Shown: one piece after another, positions 5,930-24,041 of the stretch
How positions within the stretch are numbered: position 1 is the first letter of the stretch
How the letters are laid out: every line of letters starts with the position of its first letter
From: Clostridiaceae bacterium
Lineage (GTDB): Bacteria; Bacillota; Clostridia; DSM-8532
NCBI GenBank assembly: GCA_012518025.1
Contig: JAAYTP010000079.1
Coordinates: 1-44,756, forward strand
Reading direction: 5' to 3'
Length of the DNA: 44,756 nucleotides
Program-made: the position numbers and the translations under genes
The notes under the pieces: generated by a model
The model's database searches: none
Told to the model about the DNA's origin: nothing
What the model saw: the letters and a program-made list of their open reading frames with translations, nothing else

Positions 5930-6919
5930 ATGAAGAAAACTATCGGTTGGGGCATAATGGCTACCGGAACGATCGCCAACAAGTTTTGCGAGGGTCTTAA
6001 GAGCCTGAAGGATGCCGAGATCATCGCCGTGGCCTCCAGATCTCTGGACAGAGCTCTGGCTTTTGGCAGAAAGCATGGTATAAAGCGGGCATATGGGAGT
6101 TATGAGGAGCTTGTGAAAGATCCTGAGGTGGACATTGTGTATATCGCCACTCCTCATAACCTGCATTATAGGGGGGCAATGCTCTGTCTTGAAGCAGGAA
6201 AGGCGGTGCTGTGCGAAAAGCCATTTACCCTGAACGCCCGGGAAGCAGAGAGCCTGATAAGATTTGCGAGGGAGAGAAAAGTCTTCTTAATGGAAGCTAT
6301 GTGGACGCGTTATCTCCCGGCAATTCTCAAGGTCAGGGAATGGCTGGGCAAAGGCCTTATCGGAGAGGTTCGATTTCTCAAGGCGGAATTTGGGTACCGG
6401 TGTACCTGGGATCCGGAAGGTAGGCTGCTAAACCCGGATCTTGCCGGGGGAGCACTGATGGATGTGGGTATCTATCCGGTATCATTCGCCTCCATGGTTT
6501 ATGGCAGCCAGCCTCAATCAATTAAAAGCCTGGCACATATCGGCCAAACCCACGTGGACGAACAATTTGCAGTTCTGTTTGGGTATGGTGGCGGAAAAAT
6601 TGCCTCCCTTTCAGGGGCTGTGCGAACAAATTTCGTTAATGATGCCATGATAATGGGAACTCATGGCAGGATTCATATTCCGGATTTCTTTTATGCGAAG
6701 AAGGCGACACTTTATACGGCATCCGGCACTGAAGAATATGGCCCTGAGTTTGAGGGGAACGGTTATCATTATGAGGCGGCTGAAGCTATGAGCTGCCTGA
6801 GGGAAGGAAAGCTGGAAAGCAGTGTCATGCCCCTTGACGAGACCCTGGCTATAATGCATACCATGGATACCATCCGCTCTCAATGGGGACTGAAATACCC
6901 CGGTGAAAACGGGGTATGA
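5930..6919 (+). CDS. Gfo/Idh/MocA-family NAD(P)-dependent oxidoreductase
   Basis: This 329-residue cytosolic enzyme has the two-domain layout of the Gfo/Idh/MocA family, which oxidises or reduces sugars, inositols and related polyols using NAD(P). The N-terminal Rossmann part starts GWGIMATGTIANKF, and the family hallmark EKPFTLN lies near residues 95-101 with the catalytic-type lysine in EKP. GGALMDVGIYPV near residue 180 is the conserved helix of the C-terminal alpha/beta domain that carries active-site residues. The ATG follows GAAAGGAG closely. Substrate cannot be deduced; the nearby sugar-type sensor (6947-9334) hints at a carbohydrate but the two genes converge and are not an operon. 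Confidence 0.9.
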   Translation: MKKTIGWGIMATGTIANKFCEGLKSLKDAEIIAVASRSLDRALAFGRKHGIKRAYGSYEELVKDPEVDIVYIATPHNLHYRGAMLCLEAGKAVLCEKPFTLNAREAESLIRFARERKVFLMEAMWTRYLPAILKVREWLGKGLIGEVRFLKAEFGYRCTWDPEGRLLNPDLAGGALMDVGIYPVSFASMVYGSQPQSIKSLAHIGQTHVDEQFAVLFGYGGGKIASLSGAVRTNFVNDAMIMGTHGRIHIPDFFYAKKATLYTASGTEEYGPEFEGNGYHYEAAEAMSCLREGKLESSVMPLDETLAIMHTMDTIRSQWGLKYPGENGV

Positions 6920-6946: not shown

Positions 6947-9334
6947 TTACTGATCGTCGTTCAGCTTACTCTGCTTATCTTCATAGAGGGCTTTATCCGC
7001 TGCCTTCATAAGATCCTCAAATGAACAGGGATTCTCGGGGCAAAAATAGGCAAACCCGAGGCTGATGGACAATTTGTATGGTTTTTTAGACAATTCGTTA
7101 TGAAGATCGCAATACCGTTGTATCCTGTTTCTTATGTCCTTCTCATCCTTATTTGATGCGCTTGAGATAATTACGGTGAATTCATCCCCTCCCAGGCGGC
7201 TGATGATATCAGAATTGCGGAAGGTCTTGTTCAGTATCTTGGCAGTGCTGGCTATGGCATAGTCACCTTCGCTGTGACCGAACTGGTCATTAATCATCTT
7301 CAGACCGTCCAGATCGGCATAGAGAAGGAGAAAGCTAATATCATTCCTCTTTGCGGTTTCATAGTACTCGTTTCCAAGTTTCATGAATCCGCGCCGGTTA
7401 TATAATTGGGTCAGGTCATCACGAATGGATTGTATGTGAAGCTGCTCATTGTAATAGCTCAGATCCCGCAAGGCCTGTTTTAACTGTTTTTCCACATCTC
7501 TTCTCTTGGCTATCTCTTCCTTGAGGTTTTTATTGCTTTCTGAAAGCTCCTTAGTTCTTTCCCTCACCTGTATCTCCAGGTTCGCTGCCTGCCTGGTAAT
7601 CCTTTCAATAAGCATTGTAGCCTTCAATGAAACACTGAGCCTGTACCGTATGATCTCATAGTTCTTGTTAATGGTGGTATCGAAGTCCAATATCACATAA
7701 CCCATCTTATTGTTGCCCTGATGGAGTGCCTGTACCACAATACTGAATCTGTTCTTATACAGTTCTTCCTTAAATGGCTGAGGGAGAAGATCCTGGGTGT
7801 TGAACACCATACCCTGCCCGCCTTTTTTGTAGCAGTTTTTATCGGTCATGGCAAGGATCAGGCGCGATTTTCCCAGTGGGTTCTCATCATCTTCAAACAG
7901 GGCTATGTAGCAGGTGTGGATATCAAGCTGAGGCAGCAACTGGCAGACTGTTTTGAGCTGGTTCTCATAATCCAGGCTGGCCATGAGGGCTTCCCCGAGC
8001 CGTTCAGTGTTCTCACCAAGGAGCGGATTGGATATGGATCGGTTGGCATCCGCATTTTGGAATGTGTCAAACAGGAAAATCATGGCAGCCTGAAGGAGGT
8101 TTTCCGCCCTTATTACTTCCTCCCTGGTTGTTAGGTTGCTCATGAGTATTGTTCGAATGGTGGGCAGGATGTCCTGTATGAACAGCCAGTCAATCATATT
8201 CTCAGAACACCAAAGGATGAGGCTATGGATGGACATTACGAACTTGTCCCTGATCCCATTCTGGAATTCATCAAAAAATGCATCCAGAACCTGCCTTTCC
8301 TGATTAAGCAGACCTTTGAGCAAAGCAGAGCTATCGCTGATATCAAGTGAATGATTCAATTCATCCAGTGTAGCCATGATCTGACTGATTAGTTCTTCAA
8401 CATCGCTACCTTGCTTCACGAGATCAGGGTCCACATAGGCTTTTTTAACGGCAGACGGGACGCAGCCGCAGGATGATCTGAGAATCATTCTGGATGGTAT
8501 CTCCACATGGTAGGGGGTATCCCGCCCCTCCAGGATGTTCAGGAGTATTTCCGCAGCCTTGCGGGTTTGGTCATAAAAGCTCTGACGAACAGTGGTCAGG
8601 CCATAGACCCTGCCATTCTCCGTGTCGTCAAAACCGGTTATTGGCAGGGTAAAAATAAGGTTTTTGTTGTTTTTGTTAAATTCTAACAGGGCTCCCGTTG
8701 CCATATTGTCGTTGGAACTGACGAGGGCATCGAACTGTATATTTTCCCTTCTGAATGTCCGTACAGCTTCGGATCCTGAATCAAACCGGAAATCGCCGTT
8801 ATAGATTAGGCTCGGATCAAAGTCAATGCTATGATCAGCCAGGGAGTCGCAATATGCCTGAAATCGGATATAAGCCTCTTTGCAGGGTGGGCCTTTAATG
8901 AAGGCTATTCTTTTGTATCCATGCTCTTCGATTAAGTGATCCACAACCTGACGTATACCCGTATAATTGTCGATGGTTACAGACGGAAAATTCTCGAACC
9001 TCTCGCCTACAGTGACAATGGGCAAATCCCCGTAACTTTCGAGCAGCTTCACTATGGAATTTGCATCGCTGTAAACTCCAATAGCAGTGGTAGGGACAAT
9101 CAGTCCATCAACCTTGTTCTTGTCTATGAACTCCAGCAATATGTTGCGGCATCTGTCCCATTCATAGGGTGAGTCCACCCTTCCTGTGACAAAACAGATG
9201 ACATTGATATCATTTTCTTTGGCAAAATCAGAAAGACCCGAGAGAAGCAGGGACTGATAATAGTGGCTCTCTCCCCAACTGGTTATCCAGTCGATAAGAA
9301 TTCCGAAGGTATATTTCTTTTTCTTTTCTGGCAT
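6947..9334 (-). CDS. LacI-type sugar-sensor domain fused to a GGDEF diguanylate cyclase
   Basis: The 795-residue protein has no signal peptide or membrane segment. Residues 8-290 look like the ligand-binding half of LacI/PurR regulators (VDGLIVPT at 75, PIVTVGERF at 105, SVTIDNYTG at 118, SSNDNMATGAL at 206, SRMILRSSCGC at 281), but the DNA-binding helix-turn-helix is absent. A helical linker (300-430), a GAF-like region (about 440-580) and a coiled coil (583-632) lead to a GGDEF domain (640-795) with intact GGDEF at 715-719. RNSD at 706-709, five residues upstream, matches the inhibitory product-binding I-site. The likely role is making cyclic di-GMP in response to an intracellular sugar or nucleoside; this is inference. 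The ATG follows GGGAGATGG. Confidence 0.88.
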   Translation of the reverse strand: MPEKKKKYTFGILIDWITSWGESHYYQSLLLSGLSDFAKENDINVICFVTGRVDSPYEWDRCRNILLEFIDKNKVDGLIVPTTAIGVYSDANSIVKLLESYGDLPIVTVGERFENFPSVTIDNYTGIRQVVDHLIEEHGYKRIAFIKGPPCKEAYIRFQAYCDSLADHSIDFDPSLIYNGDFRFDSGSEAVRTFRRENIQFDALVSSNDNMATGALLEFNKNNKNLIFTLPITGFDDTENGRVYGLTTVRQSFYDQTRKAAEILLNILEGRDTPYHVEIPSRMILRSSCGCVPSAVKKAYVDPDLVKQGSDVEELISQIMATLDELNHSLDISDSSALLKGLLNQERQVLDAFFDEFQNGIRDKFVMSIHSLILWCSENMIDWLFIQDILPTIRTILMSNLTTREEVIRAENLLQAAMIFLFDTFQNADANRSISNPLLGENTERLGEALMASLDYENQLKTVCQLLPQLDIHTCYIALFEDDENPLGKSRLILAMTDKNCYKKGGQGMVFNTQDLLPQPFKEELYKNRFSIVVQALHQGNNKMGYVILDFDTTINKNYEIIRYRLSVSLKATMLIERITRQAANLEIQVRERTKELSESNKNLKEEIAKRRDVEKQLKQALRDLSYYNEQLHIQSIRDDLTQLYNRRGFMKLGNEYYETAKRNDISFLLLYADLDGLKMINDQFGHSEGDYAIASTAKILNKTFRNSDIISRLGGDEFTVIISSASNKDEKDIRNRIQRYCDLHNELSKKPYKLSISLGFAYFCPENPCSFEDLMKAADKALYEDKQSKLNDDQ

Positions 9335-9625
9335 GATACCATCTCCCGGACAGCAGATGAATTGACCGGATCAATGCCGGTATCAACGCTGGCTTACAAG
9401 ATACAACAATCTTATATGTTATTATAAGCCATATTGCTGAATTTAGGAAACCCCTTTTACTATATCATACCATACATACTGTCATTAAATGCATTTTCAT
9501 GTCACTTTTAAGTAACATTCTAGCATACAGATAACTGATCCGATCTTTCCTGTGCTGGATTAAAAGGATATAATGGAATAGGCTGGCTGCATTTTTTGGT
9601 AACAGCCAGACCTGGAGGTAATGAC
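9335..9625. promoter_or_regulatory. divergent intergenic region between LacI/GGDEF and SLH protease genes
   Basis: This 291-base gap serves two divergent genes. For the plus strand, TATAAT at 9569-9574 is a good -10 box; the best -35 17 bases away is a weak TTTCCT at 9546-9551. For the minus strand a TATAAT lies at 9422-9427 (read on the opposite strand), also with a weak -35. No gene or strong hairpin is visible. Confidence 0.4.
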
Positions 9626-12600
9626 ATGCTGAAAAGAATTACGGCCTTTTTAATTGCACTGGCTCTTCAGGCTACAGGGATTTCATCTGTGGCCTTAGGC
9701 CAGAATGCAATCCTTCAGCAGGGGATGGATGCCCGTGCATTGCAGGGAATTGAAATCGAGCTTAAAGAAGCCCAAACCTCCCGCATACTTGTCGAGATGT
9801 CTTCAGGTGAAGTCATGGCTGTAGATGTCGCTGATATGGACGATGCCTGGTTCGAAAAAGGACAGGTATGGCTGTCCTTTTATATGGATGATACATTGCT
9901 CAGGGGGCGCTATTTGGAGCCTGATCTGATAAAACATTTTGAAGCCAACGAAAGCAATCGGTCATCGGGGGGTACCGATGCCTCTGAGGCTGGTGACGAA
10001 ATCGGTCTGGATCGATTGGGGGAATTGGTAGAAAACAGCACGGGCACAGTAACTATCGCCGTGATTGACACCGGAGTTGACCTGACCCATCCCTGGTTTG
10101 AAGGCAGGATTGTTGCCCCATTTGATGCGGTAGAAGATGATAATAATCCTCAGGATCTTTTTGGCCACGGGACTCATATAGCAGGGATTATTGCCCGGAA
10201 TACACCTTCAAATGTCAGGCTCATGCCTGTCAGGGTGTTTGACCAGGATGGGGATGCTCCCGATTCAATCATTGTTAAAGGGATCAACCATGCGATCAAA
10301 AATGGTGCCGACGTCATCAACATGTCCCTGGGAGGATACGGCACCACCGCCTACCTGGACAAGGCCATTGACTATGCCGTATCCAATGGTGTTATGATCA
10401 TCGTATCCGCCGGTAATGAAGCAAAGGATAACTCCCATTATTATCCTGCCGCATTTCCCGAAGTGATCACTGTGGGAGCCGTTGGCAGGAATGGTGATCT
10501 GCTCTATTTCTCCAATACCGGTGATCATATAGATGTGTGTGCCCCGGGGGAAAAGATTGTCAGTGCCCTGCCCGGAAACTCTACAGGGAGCAAGTCGGGA
10601 ACTTCCATGGCCGCCCCTCTTGTTGCATCGGCGGCAGCGTTACTTATTCTGGAGGATCCCACACGAAGTATTTCCGATGTGGAGAGGATCATCATCAACC
10701 ATACCTGTGATCTCGGTGTTCCCGGAAAGGACAAACTGTTCGGACATGGTGAACTGACATTTGAGAATTATAAAATTGATCCAGATTTTTATATGATAGA
10801 GCCCCTCAAGGCAGAGCTCCAGGAAGAGAAATACCATTTAAACCTCAGCTTCTATGCAGGCGGTTCGGTGAAAGCTGTTGAGATAAAAATCGATGGTATT
10901 ACCAACAGGCAGGTTCCTGTGTTTTCGCCGGGCGAGAAAAAGGTAAGCCTTGACATCAGAGATATCGACATAGGGCCGCATTTGCTGGAAGTACGGCCTG
11001 TTTTCATCGATGGTACTTTTGGTGAGGTGTATTCACGGGAATTTACCGTTCCGGAGTATAACGTTAGAATCAGGGTGTATGATGCGGCAAATCAACTTAT
11101 CCCAAATTCCAGAATCAATGTCCTGGGGTTTTCTCAAAAGGACAGAAAAGTAACAAAGCTGCATATAAACCCGACTGTAGTTAACGGGGTGTGGATGGTA
11201 AATCTTGACTTTGAGCGGCTGACCCGTATTTATGATAAGATCCGATGCAGTGTGGAATCACGCCTTAGTGATGGTTCGCGGGATGTTCCATTCTATTTCA
11301 GAACCATTGGTACAACGGGAGAGAAGGATTTTGATGCATCGGAGTGCAATGTGCTGGGACTTACATCCAGAGAAAAGATTCCTGGTTGCACAGTAACCAC
11401 CCGGGTTCTTGGGAATTCGTTGATGGGGTTCAGTGATGTCCGGGAATGGGGCGGCAGCGTTTTTGAGACTGCGGTGAGCACGAAAGATATTTCCTTTGTT
11501 GAAATTCAAGAAAATGATGGCAGCCAGCTCTATGCCGGTCTTCTCTATTATGACATGGCAGACCTCTGGGTTGACATTTATTCATACTCAGGGGGCGAAA
11601 GGACGGAGCCTGCCAGGGATGCGGAGATTTGGTACCATTCAGGAAAGCTGGATGGTATGGACAGCATCATGCAGCTGGATGCTTCAAACCTTAAAACCAT
11701 CAGGGTTGAGGCAGACCTTTCCACGGTAGAAGAAGCCGAGTACATGCTGCTCAACATTCCCACGGGAAATATCATATCAAATGCGCTGAATAGTCCGACC
11801 GGTTCGGTCGATATCATGCCGGGCTTCTTTGACATTTTTCTTCTCACAGGAAGGGCTTTAAAGGGTGGGGGTACCGCAGCGGATGCATATTTCAACACCT
11901 TTCATACTGAGTTTGGCGGAAAGGAAAAGACTTTCAGGTTCGGGGAAGGCCTGATGGATGATTTTATTTACGACACTGAGTCCCAGAGGATACTACACAG
12001 ATGGACAGATATACATGGAAATGGATATTCGGTGATGGTTCAGGATAATGGCAGGACAGATTTATGCATACCAACTCTGTTCCTTGTTGATGTCAGGGGC
12101 AGTTCATACAGACTTCAGGGGACTGAATCTCGTGATTCCGGCGACTATATTCACGCCTATTCATTGGCAAAAATACCTGACGGTGTTTACCGGATCAGTT
12201 TTATCAGTGACAGCGAAAGACTGGCTTTCCCTGTGAAACCTTCCACCACATTGGCTACCGTTTTTAATGGAGCTGCCTATGTTCCTAACAATACTCCTCC
12301 TGTTGCCTACTCGGACTACACATCCAGTATCAGGCCAGGGGATCTGTTTGTTTTTGACCTTCGTGAGGAGTTTTCAGACAGGGAGCAGGCAGAGCTCAAG
12401 TTCTCCGCTACAGCAGGCTGGATTGTTGACGGGCTTTTCTTTTACAGGGATTTGATCGGCCAGGATGCTGAGATCGTTATCACAGCTTATGATGGTGCAG
12501 GAGGAGTCACAAGCTTCAGACATACCATCAGGGTTACCGACAGGACCGCCCCTGAAAGCGACTACATACCTATTCCTGAGATAGACAGCATTGGCTCCTC

Positions 12601-13159
12601 CAGCTGGGCAGTTCCATATGTAGAGCAGGCCATCAAGGCAAATATTGTACCTGTTGAGCTTCTGGACGGGTATCAGACCGGAATAACCCGGCGGGAATTC
12701 AGTTCCATGATTGTAAGGATGGCAGAGACCTTTTTGGGTGAAATAATACCCTCCCCCGGTGTGAGCTTTTTGGATACTGAAGACCAGGACGTGCTGAAAG
12801 CCGCCTCCATGAAGTTCCTGACCGGGAGCAACGGTATTTTCAGCCCCAACGAATACATAAGCAGGCAGCAGCTATGCGTGATTATCTACCAGGCCGTGAA
12901 GGTTCTACGCCCCGATCTGGCAGGATCGATACCCGGTGCACCCCAGTTCAGGGATGCGGGTCAGATTGCCCCATGGGCCAGGGAAGCAGTAAACTTCTGC
13001 AGCGCCAACAACATCATCGTTGGAAGCAGCGGTATAATGAATCCCACGGGTACCCTGACCAGAGAGCAGGCAATCATCATGGTATATAAAACCTTTATCC
13101 TCTTAAGTCAGGAGGAGGGTCTGAATATCATGCCCGGCATGGATAACCGTGCTGCGTGA
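9626..13159 (+). CDS. secreted subtilisin-like (S8) serine protease with C-terminal SLH domains
   Basis: A 1177-residue exported protein. It starts with a signal peptide (MLKRITAFLIALALQATG), then a short pro-region. The S8 catalytic domain has all key residues: Asp147 in AVIDTGVD, His181 in GHGTHIAG, oxyanion Asn264 in SAGNEA and nucleophile Ser327 in SGTSMAAP. A long beta-rich middle of about 600 residues follows, with a cadherin/Ig-like module (NTPPVAYSDY to HTIRVTD) near 890-975. About 990-1163 hold three S-layer-homology repeats, the last with the TREQAIIMVYK signature. The protein is thus probably anchored to secondary cell-wall polymer and digests proteins at the surface. The ATG at 9626 has GGAGG just upstream; an earlier in-frame start has no ribosome site. 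Confidence 0.92.
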   Translation: MLKRITAFLIALALQATGISSVALGQNAILQQGMDARALQGIEIELKEAQTSRILVEMSSGEVMAVDVADMDDAWFEKGQVWLSFYMDDTLLRGRYLEPDLIKHFEANESNRSSGGTDASEAGDEIGLDRLGELVENSTGTVTIAVIDTGVDLTHPWFEGRIVAPFDAVEDDNNPQDLFGHGTHIAGIIARNTPSNVRLMPVRVFDQDGDAPDSIIVKGINHAIKNGADVINMSLGGYGTTAYLDKAIDYAVSNGVMIIVSAGNEAKDNSHYYPAAFPEVITVGAVGRNGDLLYFSNTGDHIDVCAPGEKIVSALPGNSTGSKSGTSMAAPLVASAAALLILEDPTRSISDVERIIINHTCDLGVPGKDKLFGHGELTFENYKIDPDFYMIEPLKAELQEEKYHLNLSFYAGGSVKAVEIKIDGITNRQVPVFSPGEKKVSLDIRDIDIGPHLLEVRPVFIDGTFGEVYSREFTVPEYNVRIRVYDAANQLIPNSRINVLGFSQKDRKVTKLHINPTVVNGVWMVNLDFERLTRIYDKIRCSVESRLSDGSRDVPFYFRTIGTTGEKDFDASECNVLGLTSREKIPGCTVTTRVLGNSLMGFSDVREWGGSVFETAVSTKDISFVEIQENDGSQLYAGLLYYDMADLWVDIYSYSGGERTEPARDAEIWYHSGKLDGMDSIMQLDASNLKTIRVEADLSTVEEAEYMLLNIPTGNIISNALNSPTGSVDIMPGFFDIFLLTGRALKGGGTAADAYFNTFHTEFGGKEKTFRFGEGLMDDFIYDTESQRILHRWTDIHGNGYSVMVQDNGRTDLCIPTLFLVDVRGSSYRLQGTESRDSGDYIHAYSLAKIPDGVYRISFISDSERLAFPVKPSTTLATVFNGAAYVPNNTPPVAYSDYTSSIRPGDLFVFDLREEFSDREQAELKFSATAGWIVDGLFFYRDLIGQDAEIVITAYDGAGGVTSFRHTIRVTDRTAPESDYIPIPEIDSIGSSSWAVPYVEQAIKANIVPVELLDGYQTGITRREFSSMIVRMAETFLGEIIPSPGVSFLDTEDQDVLKAASMKFLTGSNGIFSPNEYISRQQLCVIIYQAVKVLRPDLAGSIPGAPQFRDAGQIAPWAREAVNFCSANNIIVGSSGIMNPTGTLTREQAIIMVYKTFILLSQEEGLNIMPGMDNRAA

Positions 13160-14626: not shown

Positions 14627-16138
14627 ATGAATAAGGTCTATTGGATTGAAAGCTCGGAGGGTAGGGGTTACAAAAAACTGGACAGGGATATCCAGGTAGA
14701 TTACCTCATTATTGGGGGCGGGGTTGCAGGGATTACCTGCCTTTATCTTTTGGTTTCGGCAGGACATAAAGCGGTGCTGATTGATGCGGACAGGATCGGA
14801 TATGGCTGCAGTGGCCGGAACACCGGAAAAATAACTGCCCAGCACGCTCTTGTCTATAATTCCATCGAGAAACAGTTTGACCTTGAAAGAGCCCGTCAGT
14901 ATTATGAGGTGAATGATAAGGCACTGGAACTTATAGAGACGCTTATTGCCAGGTATAACATTCAATGCGATTTCCAAAGGGTTCCGGCATGTGTCTTCAC
15001 CCAGGATGAGGATTATGCCGAAAAAATCAGGCAGGAATATGAAACCTATCAGAAGATTGGACTGGACTGCAGACTGGAAAAAGAGATTCCCATACCTCTT
15101 AAGATTAAGAACGCCCTCATATTGAACAACCAGGCACAATTCAACCCCAAAAAATATATCGATGCGCTGGCAGATGAAGCCGTAAAGCAGGGGGGCACCA
15201 TATATGAAGATACCCGCATTGTTGATTTTCAGCCGGGAGAGCGCTGTACCCTCAAAACAGGGAACAAATTTACAATTGACGCAGGCCATGTGGTCATTGC
15301 TTCCCATTTTCCCTGTTATGACGGGATGGGCTTTTATTTTGCCAAGCTCAAGCCCATGAGAACCTATGCAGTCATGGCAAAGTATGATAAGAGTTTCCCA
15401 AAATGTCATTTTATCAACGCTGAGGATCCCACAAGGTCTCTGAGATATGTGCATGAAGCCGATTCCCTGCTGATTGTGGGTGAAAGCCATAAGGTAGGAC
15501 ACCATAGAGAGGATCACTATTTGAATCTTAAAAAATTTGGCAATGAGGTATTCGGTATTGAAGAGTATCAATACCAGTGGTCGGCACAGGATTATGAACC
15601 GCCCAGAAACATTCCGTACGTTGGGTATCTGAACAAGGATACCCCGAATATCTTCGTTGCAACAGGCTTTAACAAATGGGGCATATCGGGTGGCACGGCA
15701 GCAGCTATGGTTATCAGCAATATGATCCAAAATGGGAGTTCACCCTATGAAGAGCTCTATTCTCATACAACCCTTATGGATGTAGCATCCTCAACCTTTG
15801 TTACAGAAAATGCAGATGTTGCAGTTCAATTGATCAGCGGCAAACTGAAATCCGGTGACACGGAGATTCCAGAGTCTGCGGGAATAGGCCGGGTTATTAA
15901 TCTTGGCGGTAAGCGTTGCGGTTACTATAAGGATGAGGATGGAAGGGAGTACATTGTGGATGTTACCTGCACCCATATGGGATGCGAGCTTAAGTGGAAC
16001 CAGCTAGAGGCATCGTGGGATTGTCCCTGCCATGGCTCCAGATTCGACTATAAGGGAAATGTCCTGGAAGGGCCGGCTTGCCTGCCCCTGAACCGTCATG
16101 ACCAGGAAAAGAACAAGATCAACCCGCAAATCAGATGA
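14627..16138 (+). CDS. YhfW-like FAD-dependent oxidoreductase with C-terminal Rieske domain
   Basis: The 503-residue protein joins an N-terminal DAO-type FAD domain to a C-terminal Rieske [2Fe-2S] domain. The dinucleotide-binding motif IIGGGVAGITCLYLL is near residues 25-39, followed by GRNTGKITAQH. The Rieske ligands are C448 and H450 (CTHMGC) and C466 and H469 (CPCHGSRF), with C453 and C468 placed for the usual disulfide. This layout matches Bacillus YhfW, whose substrate I do not know. Electrons probably pass between the flavin and the cluster in the cytosol. The start ATG follows GAAGGAG. The PfkB kinase follows after 98 bases on the same strand, with no clear terminator between them. Confidence 0.9.
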   Translation: MNKVYWIESSEGRGYKKLDRDIQVDYLIIGGGVAGITCLYLLVSAGHKAVLIDADRIGYGCSGRNTGKITAQHALVYNSIEKQFDLERARQYYEVNDKALELIETLIARYNIQCDFQRVPACVFTQDEDYAEKIRQEYETYQKIGLDCRLEKEIPIPLKIKNALILNNQAQFNPKKYIDALADEAVKQGGTIYEDTRIVDFQPGERCTLKTGNKFTIDAGHVVIASHFPCYDGMGFYFAKLKPMRTYAVMAKYDKSFPKCHFINAEDPTRSLRYVHEADSLLIVGESHKVGHHREDHYLNLKKFGNEVFGIEEYQYQWSAQDYEPPRNIPYVGYLNKDTPNIFVATGFNKWGISGGTAAAMVISNMIQNGSSPYEELYSHTTLMDVASSTFVTENADVAVQLISGKLKSGDTEIPESAGIGRVINLGGKRCGYYKDEDGREYIVDVTCTHMGCELKWNQLEASWDCPCHGSRFDYKGNVLEGPACLPLNRHDQEKNKINPQIR

Positions 16139-22050: not shown

Positions 22051-22078
22051 ATTATACCCAGATCATGACCTAGTATAA
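22051..22078 (-). promoter_or_regulatory. candidate promoter of the hydrogenase-like gene
   Basis: On the minus strand, TTATAC (22078-22073) and TATAAT (22056-22051) are 16 bases apart. The -35 box lies within the last codons of the upstream GGDEF gene, so the hydrogenase-like gene may be transcribed both alone and with it. Confidence 0.45.
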
Positions 22079-23758
22079 CTTATTTTTATTATTTGCCTGA
22101 TGCAATCCTTTCTGGTTTTCCTTACAGATATACATGGATTTGTCGGCTCGCTCAAAGACATCATGCAAATCCTTATCGTGATCCTTAATGAAGCTTGCAA
22201 GGCCATAGGCGATGCTTAGTTCGAAGGTGGGGGCGCTTTCGTTGAAAGCTGAGATCTTTTTATTGAGGGTATCCAGCTCTACTTGGATGAAATAGGGTTC
22301 AATATTGGTGGAAAGCACAACAAACTCGTCACCACCTATCCGGAATATTTCACCCAGTTGTCCCAGGGTTTCTTTGATAAGACGGGCTCCCTGCACAATC
22401 AACTGATCCCCTTCCCTGTGGCCGAAGGTGTCATTCACATTTTTCAGGCCATTGATGTCAAGGATGACCATATGAACCGATGAATAGGCATCCAGCCTTT
22501 CATTGATGGCGGCTATTCTTTCATCAAAGGATCTTCGGTTCTTAAAACCTGTCAAGGTATCGGTAAAGGCTAGTGACATGAGAATATCGTGGCCGATCTT
22601 TTCCTCGCGGGTAATGAATGTATTATGAGCCAGAGCCGCAACGGTGGCAATCATGAAAATGAAGAGTCCATACTGATATATTACCGGCTTCACAACCCAT
22701 GGCAGGGTGCGGAAGTAATATCTGAGAATATCGGCACAGATGGATATACTAAGTAGGATACAGCCCAGAAAAAAGAGCCGGACACTTTTATTACTGCGCC
22801 GCATCTCGGTGAAGGCCGTCAATACAAGAATAACAATTGAGCACGCAAGAAGGGAATGATACAGTATGGCTGTATCATAAAACTCTATCCGGCCAAGCAT
22901 GTACAGTATTGACGACGCAAAAAAGTGAGCTGCAAAAATATACTGAAATCTCTTCAGCCAGTGACTGTATTTTGGTCTGTATGTATCGATAACAAACGAA
23001 AGAAGCGGAATGGGCGCAAGATACTGGGACATGAATGCAATACACATGATGAGCATGGGGTTTCTGATGAACAATTCCAGAGCCCGGCTTTCGCTGCACA
23101 TCCAGCATCCCGATAATATCACAAATAAGGCCAGGTAAAGAATACTGGGGTGTCTGGAACCTGAGAAGTACATAGACAGATAGAAAGCCAGCATGATGAA
23201 TCCAAGCATTATGGCCACCACGGCAAGGAAAAGGCCGATGCTGCCCTGTTTGAGGATATATAGAATATGGGCTGTAATACTTCCAATCCGAACTTCGTTG
23301 GCCACTCCTGAGAACTGGTTAAGTGGAGATGACAGAAAGATATCCAGTCTTCCGCCCTCATACCCTGATGGCAAGCTGATAAAATGATACATGCTGCCAG
23401 GTGCCCTCTGGGGATCCCCGGGTACGAACTCGTAGATGGGAATACCATTCAGATGAACGGCCGCACGCTGTTCCGATGTGCGGATCATCAGGCTTGGTCT
23501 ATCAAAAAACCTTACTGGTAAGGTATTGGTAAGATGAAGGGTTCTTCCCGCATACCCGTCGGCCACTGTTCCGGGAAGGCTTATGGTGATGGTATCATCA
23601 GAGTCTACCCAGGAGCAGGTCCAGCCATGGGATATGGTTAGGGATTCATCTTTTGAGATAGGATTCACACTGCCGACTGAGGAAACAATAATAATGGCGG
23701 CTATAATAAAAAGTGCAGCCAATGCTGACAACAGTGAAGCAATTTTGTTTTTACTCAA
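22070..23758 (-). CDS. membrane GGDEF protein with 7TM-type sensor
   Basis: The 562-residue protein begins with one transmembrane helix (IASLLSALAALFIIAAIII), then an outside beta-rich domain of about 130 residues, then about seven transmembrane helices (roughly 165-390) like the 7TMR-DISM receptors, and a GGDEF domain at about 405-555. The active motif is FRIGGDEFVVL, intact, but the RxxD inhibitory site five residues earlier is not seen (the position reads GQLG). It probably makes cyclic di-GMP in response to an extracellular ligand. I chose the TTG at 23758 because AGGGTGATC, close to the full anti-Shine-Dalgarno complement, lies just upstream; the frame itself opens at another TTG at 23797. 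The hydrogenase-like gene follows after 57 bases. Confidence 0.85.
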   Translation of the reverse strand: MSKNKIASLLSALAALFIIAAIIIVSSVGSVNPISKDESLTISHGWTCSWVDSDDTITISLPGTVADGYAGRTLHLTNTLPVRFFDRPSLMIRTSEQRAAVHLNGIPIYEFVPGDPQRAPGSMYHFISLPSGYEGGRLDIFLSSPLNQFSGVANEVRIGSITAHILYILKQGSIGLFLAVVAIMLGFIMLAFYLSMYFSGSRHPSILYLALFVILSGCWMCSESRALELFIRNPMLIMCIAFMSQYLAPIPLLSFVIDTYRPKYSHWLKRFQYIFAAHFFASSILYMLGRIEFYDTAILYHSLLACSIVILVLTAFTEMRRSNKSVRLFFLGCILLSISICADILRYYFRTLPWVVKPVIYQYGLFIFMIATVAALAHNTFITREEKIGHDILMSLAFTDTLTGFKNRRSFDERIAAINERLDAYSSVHMVILDINGLKNVNDTFGHREGDQLIVQGARLIKETLGQLGEIFRIGGDEFVVLSTNIEPYFIQVELDTLNKKISAFNESAPTFELSIAYGLASFIKDHDKDLHDVFERADKSMYICKENQKGLHQANNKNKLY

Positions 23759-24041
23759 TATGATCACCCTGAATCCATCTTCGTCAAAAAAATACAAAAA
23801 CTACAAACTAAGCATAGCAAAAAGTACCGGATTAAACAATATTAAATAGAAATTTCCGGGAGAGAGTGATGTCCTGCACATGGTTTTCGACCAGGGTTAT
23901 CGAGGCATATTGAGGTTTTATCTTTCTTTTTCAGGACAGGTCTGGTAGAATCATGTTATGTAAAAAGGCGAATTTAGCAATTACAGGTTTAAAACTTATT
24001 TAGGTTGCAGAGAGGTAACCTCTATTTAGAAGAAATGGGGT

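Follow-up and report, generated by a model that had tools for sequence, protein, structure and literature searches.

The stretch of DNA analysed here, referred to as the window, is 44,756 nucleotides long and carries on its minus strand a gene for a 795-residue protein with a LacI-type sensor at the N-terminus and a GGDEF domain at the C-terminus (Table 1). The ATG is preceded, at a distance of 7 nt, by a Shine-Dalgarno-like GGGAGA. The gene is flanked by a convergent gene for a Gfo/Idh/MocA oxidoreductase and a divergent gene for a subtilase with an S-layer homology (SLH) domain. Elsewhere in the window there is a second GGDEF protein of 575 residues (22070-23797, minus strand) and, at 14627-16138 on the plus strand, an FAD-dependent oxidoreductase fused to a Rieske [2Fe-2S] domain.

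Table 1. Features of the LacI-type sensor/GGDEF gene and its two neighbours (coordinates are those of the window)
Feature	Coordinates	Strand	Basis
LacI-type sensor/GGDEF protein, 795 aa, ATG start	6947..9334	-	ORF listing, Pfam, presence in relatives
LacI-type ligand-binding domain, residues ~6-293, no HTH in front	8456..9319	-	Pfam, PDB sequence matches, Foldseek of low-confidence model
H133-L-I-E-E-H138, His half of signature	8921..8938	-	H138 is the column best separating HTH-less from HTH-bearing sensors
R157, pocket, aligned with LacI R197	8864..8866	-	Alignment
D236, pocket, aligned with LacI D274 / PurR D275	8627..8629	-	Alignment
R286-S-S-C289-G-C291, sensor-domain exit	8462..8479	-	Sequence alignments
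Helical region, residues 294-455, no Pfam family	7970..8455	-	Secondary structure of low-confidence models
GAF-like domain, residues about 456-575, weak assignment	7610..7969	-	Strand/helix order in low-confidence model; GAF_2 weak in 2/25 relatives; no PDB match
Long helix into GGDEF domain, residues about 576-636, probably coiled coil (inferred)	7427..7609	-	Low-confidence model
GGDEF domain, residues 637-792	6959..7426	-	Pfam; Foldseek TMt about 0.85 to T. maritima GGDEF
I-site RNSD, residues 706-709 (R706-x-x-D709)	7208..7219	-	Sequence; five residues before GGDEF, the I-site spacing
GGDEF active-site motif, residues 715-719	7178..7192	-	Sequence
Gfo/Idh/MocA oxidoreductase, convergent neighbour	5930..6919	+	Pfam; same in G004 by Pfam
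Subtilase with SLH domain, divergent neighbour	9626..13159	+	ATG at 9626 with GGAGGT in front; listed ORF 9596-13159 starts at TTG 9596

When the 795-residue protein was searched against Pfam, Peripla_BP_1 matched residues 65-280 (E 5e-11), Peripla_BP_3 matched residues 131-289 (E 9e-11) and GGDEF matched with an E value of 2e-36. LacI-family models of NCBIfam matched as well, for example PRK09526 at E 1e-24, all of them far under their cut-offs. Among PDB sequences, the N-terminal part was closest to the ancestral LacI 9nt3 (E 1e-26, or 2e-27 when the domain was searched by itself), with CcpA and PurR next, and the whole protein also matched many GGDEF enzymes. Neither Pfam nor NCBIfam found any helix-turn-helix (HTH) family, the LacI-type domain beginning at about residue 6, and there is no membrane segment, the highest 19-residue Kyte-Doolittle mean being 1.14. 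The core observation of the sequence-only reading, that a LacI-type sensor which has lost its HTH is joined to a motif-complete GGDEF domain in a cytosolic protein, is thus real by Pfam, by PDB sequence matches and by the existence of intact relatives.

That reading had placed the LacI half directly on the GGDEF domain, and while the sensor is indeed N-terminal, about 340 residues (~294-636) separate the two domains, which the low-confidence models render as a helical part, a GAF-like part and a coiled coil. The mean AlphaFold pLDDT was 53 for the full protein, modelled from a 5-row alignment, and 48 for the middle region, and we relied on these models for the GGDEF part and for the succession of helices and strands only. 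A 25-row profile of the middle region matched no PDB chain, and GAF_2 was found in 2 of 25 relatives with a best E value of 0.011, and because of this the label GAF-like is weak. Since no reliable family could be assigned to this region, it may hold a second input. Modelling had also been proposed as a check on the periplasmic-binding fold; Foldseek did retrieve the LacI-family structures 3dbi and 9nt4 at E about 3e-10, but the model was of low confidence and the matches had a target TM of 0.24 and an rmsd of about 20, so that they back a LacI-type fold only weakly.

All four further genomes of the genus that were searched (G001-G004) have the gene, with 83-85% identity over the full length in G002-G004 and as two contig-end pieces of 99% and 96% identity in G001. 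Near-identical named contigs belong to the Clostridiaceae MAGs DTU059, AS09scLD_132 and AS02xzSISU_47. Conservation of the intact gene across the genus is more than would be expected by chance. At the position of the subtilase, G002-G004 have an ORF of 1167-1192 residues and G001 has two pieces; this synteny was judged from size-matched ORFs in the same places, with a Pfam check on the G004 oxidoreductase only. The SLH-bearing subtilase, divergent from the cyclase gene across the genus by size and position, is a possible c-di-GMP target or partner. The genome itself contains 12 GGDEF matches and one PilZ protein and therefore c-di-GMP likely has a use there. No c-di-GMP riboswitch was found in the window, nor in the genome, where the control genomes were also silent and absence is thus not established. 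The genes next to the cyclase gene do not point to a ligand. A look at the neighbours of other fusions had also been suggested; a scan around relatives outside the genus, covering ten proteins, showed no shared gene that would indicate the ligand.

The search for further LacI-GGDEF fusions, likewise suggested earlier, revealed a larger sensor family with many outputs. When a full-length profile was run against 291 genomes of the class at a threshold of E <= 1e-40, matches were found in 36 genomes, many covering one half only, and near-whole-model matches in 10 genomes of three families (G000, G002, G004, G088, G114, G116, G162, G184, G263 and G281); two proteins of Lachnospiraceae MAGs (L073 and L074) also match along their length. 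The outputs joined to HTH-less sensors are GGDEF, degenerate GGDEF, GGDEF-EAL, EAL, the HD-GYP-type HD_5, HATPase/HisKA and HisKA-HATPase-REC-Hpt. That one sensor sits on c-di-GMP enzymes of opposite sign (GGDEF, EAL and HD-GYP) as well as on histidine kinases is in keeping with a sensor module and not with a GGDEF-specific scaffold. Individual members include a 622-residue paralogue in the same genome (G000:C22, at L045:1046-2914, minus strand), with an HTH-less LacI-type sensor, CGC and a GGDEF domain that is without the motif; a relative of it (L046) has an ABC exporter pair and a divergent CorA-type transporter as neighbours. LacI-type sensors with CGC are fused to HD_5 in L265:181-3252 (+) and L169:1167-3572 (+), a hybrid histidine kinase with a LacI-type sensor, receiver and Hpt domains is encoded at L198:2645-6067 (-), and a single ORF of odd topology at L109:13809-16469 (-) has a GH16 glycoside hydrolase domain, a LacI-type sensor behind it and GGDEF.

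In each of three trees built from the sensor domain, all fusions, the window protein among them, fell on one side of a single branch and the proteins without an output fusion, nearly all of them HTH-bearing LacI regulators, on the other. The branch separated 47 from 42 rows (SH-aLRT 99) when only the exit columns had been removed, and 105 from 60 rows (SH-aLRT 99) and 106 from 81 rows (SH-aLRT 85) when the signature columns described below had been removed. Within this sample of Bacillota genomes, and for this sample only, the HTH-less fusions appear to share one origin; they were collected by mutual similarity, and any LacI-type fusions that arose separately may have escaped the search. Both this family and the middle region were absent from the sequence-only reading, which as a whole is partly supported.

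The fusions carry a signature consisting of H133-x(3-4)-H138 and, at the sensor exit, C289-G-C291, and the window protein has all of it. In a comparison of 105 fusions with 60 LacI regulators the best separating positions were H138 (97% against 3%) and C291 (93% against 2%). Among 187 sensors, H138 and CGC occurred together in 103, all of which also have H133, neither occurred in 82, H138 alone in two and CGC alone in none; for the fusions the corresponding numbers were both in 101, neither in four and H138 only in one, and for the non-fusion rows neither in 78, both in two and H138 only in one. CGC stood at the exit in 46 of 49 fusions of the first set (51 rows including two HTH regulators, two duplicates having been dropped), one more having CSC. 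In 398 genomes of the phylum there were 16 new fusions, each with CGC, a count that leaves out three fusions already known and three HTH regulators (L177, L184 and L185). Of 41 new fusions retrieved with a query that lacked the CGC region, 39 had CGC; 40 of the unseen loci, not all, were examined. CGC had to be assigned manually in six fusions, as the aligned segment ended before the motif or ran beyond it. LacI regulators had CGC in 0 of 41 rows (including L093, which has no HTH, and the truncated L132) and in one of 20 in the phylum set (L179). L179 and L293 come from one genome and are LacI-type proteins without an output fusion that have both H138 and CGC; L179 has an HTH, and L293 runs off its contig with no HTH seen. 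On the tree each of the two traits changes about seven times, and in independent pairs they changed together in four, in opposite directions in none and showed no difference in one (p = 0.125, below which the test cannot go with so few changes), which makes the co-occurrence of H138 and CGC suggestive only.

An H-x(3-4)-H at the end of a helix together with a C-x-C at the end of a strand resembles a Cys2His2 zinc site, and it may be that the exit strand is clamped by a metal, perhaps zinc, bound to the signature. This raises the question whether sensing of metal or redox state is an additional, or even the main, function of the sensor, in which case H133, H138, C289 and C291 would bind zinc or iron, or a C289-C291 disulfide would switch, and so control the cyclase. 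The strict company that both histidines keep with CGC in the 103 rows fits such a role, as do the CXC half formed by C289 and C291 and the placing of H-x(3-4)-H at the end of a predicted helix. We nevertheless consider it unlikely, because the ligand pocket is kept too and the site would not be the sole input, because the bearers sampled are mostly from the anaerobe-rich Bacillota, where a cytosolic disulfide would be less expected, and because the shared four-residue site is itself a putative one.

Alignment with E. coli LacI, PurR and RbsR shows that the core of the pocket is kept: R157 corresponds to R197 of LacI, F182 to W220, N208 to N246, D236 to D274 and Q251 to Q291, residues which we take to be sugar contacts in LacI. 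N208 agrees with LacI and RbsR whereas PurR has a glycine there (G247), and R190 of PurR is K152 here, and for these reasons a sugar-like ligand appears more likely than a purine. LacI-type cores are dimers, and the pocket position of S193 in LacI is E153 in the window protein, so a domain that binds no ligand and merely dimerises the cyclase could be imagined. This is quite improbable given the five pocket residues that are kept, and dimerisation alone would not need R157 to be invariant in 25 of 25 aligned sensors (as R152 in the numbering of that alignment) or D236 to be near-invariant across sensors with different outputs.

It is very improbable that the GGDEF domain is a receptor for c-di-GMP or GTP and no cyclase, for although G000:C22 and relatives without the GGDEF motif show that the family does produce non-catalytic forms, the window protein has the motif, the preceding LTQLYNRRGF and DGLKMINDQFGHSEGD blocks and the I-site, and so do the close relatives compared. 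The I-site itself, from which product feedback had been proposed earlier, is intact in the window protein but is not a general feature, as RxxD was found in 19 of 54 LacI-GGDEF proteins with a GGDEF motif (identical ends counted once).

The explanation that we favour, and which as judged from the sequence is fairly probable, is that the protein is a diguanylate cyclase, soluble and cytosolic, that is gated by a probably sugar-like ligand and subject to product feedback; ligand class, dimerisation, gating, cyclase activity and feedback are what we infer. LacI regulators pass their signal to the HTH by way of the N-terminus. In the window protein the sole possible exit would be the C-terminal strand of the sensor, which ends in RSSCGC. 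The kept pocket residues suggest that a small molecule, probably a sugar-like one, is bound between the lobes of the LacI-type domain, and upon binding the lobes would close and the exit strand would move. This motion, passed through the helical and GAF-like region and the coiled coil, would determine how far apart, or in what register, the paired GGDEF domains of a dimer stand, and would thereby switch c-di-GMP synthesis. Rising c-di-GMP would then bind the RNSD I-site and slow the enzyme. A wider proposal, which we put forward tentatively as possible rather than probable, concerns a family of cytosolic LacI-type receptors, one branch of which would be the window protein. In this family the HTH would have been lost a single time, outputs would then have been swapped among diguanylate cyclases, c-di-GMP phosphodiesterases of both kinds and histidine kinases, and a Cys2His2-like metal clamp (H133, H138, C289 and C291) would have been gained for C-terminal signalling. 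By fastening the exit strand to the C-terminal lobe, the clamp would pass lobe closure on to the output. If the gating is true, bacteria would be able to turn the level of an intracellular metabolite directly into a c-di-GMP signal, by means of a sensor borrowed from a regulator family that is among the best studied. A real H/H/CGC site would allow LacI-type proteins that signal through the C-terminus to be recognised by a simple sequence test, and would make the mechanism accessible to a test with four point mutants.

With LacI/GalR transcription factors such as LacI, PurR, RbsR and CcpA the window protein shares the ligand-binding core and the main pocket residues (R/N/D/Q), but it has neither HTH nor hinge and its output is C-terminal; among LacI-type proteins without an output fusion the CGC/H138 signature occurs in just 2 of 81. 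XylR of E. coli likewise has its output after the sensor, an AraC-type HTH following a LacI-type domain, but that output binds DNA and, unlike the window protein, XylR has neither H138 nor CGC. A LacI-type sensor, a similar middle and GGDEF-EAL are found in WP_015231178.1 (L297) of Deinococcus peraridilitoris, which belongs to another phylum, has SCGT where the window protein has SCGC and is without H138. That the signature is needed for any C-terminal output was considered and is refuted by XylR and this Deinococcus protein, both of which lack it. RmcA of Pseudomonas aeruginosa is a membrane protein that, as here, has a binding-protein-type sensor on a c-di-GMP enzyme. Its sensor is an SBP_bac_3 domain, described as periplasmic, whereas the window protein has no membrane segment; RmcA senses arginine (PMC8846402). 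In the literature we found no experiment on any member of the sensor family and no paper with both 'Cys-Gly-Cys' and LacI, the latter being thin evidence of absence, and the parts consulted of PMC1183210 and PMC12268683 added nothing on the architecture. The closest report found is a listing in a 2022 review of sensory domains (PMC8846402), where cyclases with Peripla_BP sensors, the same Pfam architecture as here, stand among putative sensory domains without validated roles, section 20 stating that the role of the domain in c-di-GMP signalling is not validated; the sections of the review consulted make no mention of a single-origin family, of the CGC/His signature or of other outputs for the sensor. 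The architecture of the window protein had therefore already been listed, and what is new here is the larger multi-output sensor family to which it belongs and the H/H/CGC signature.
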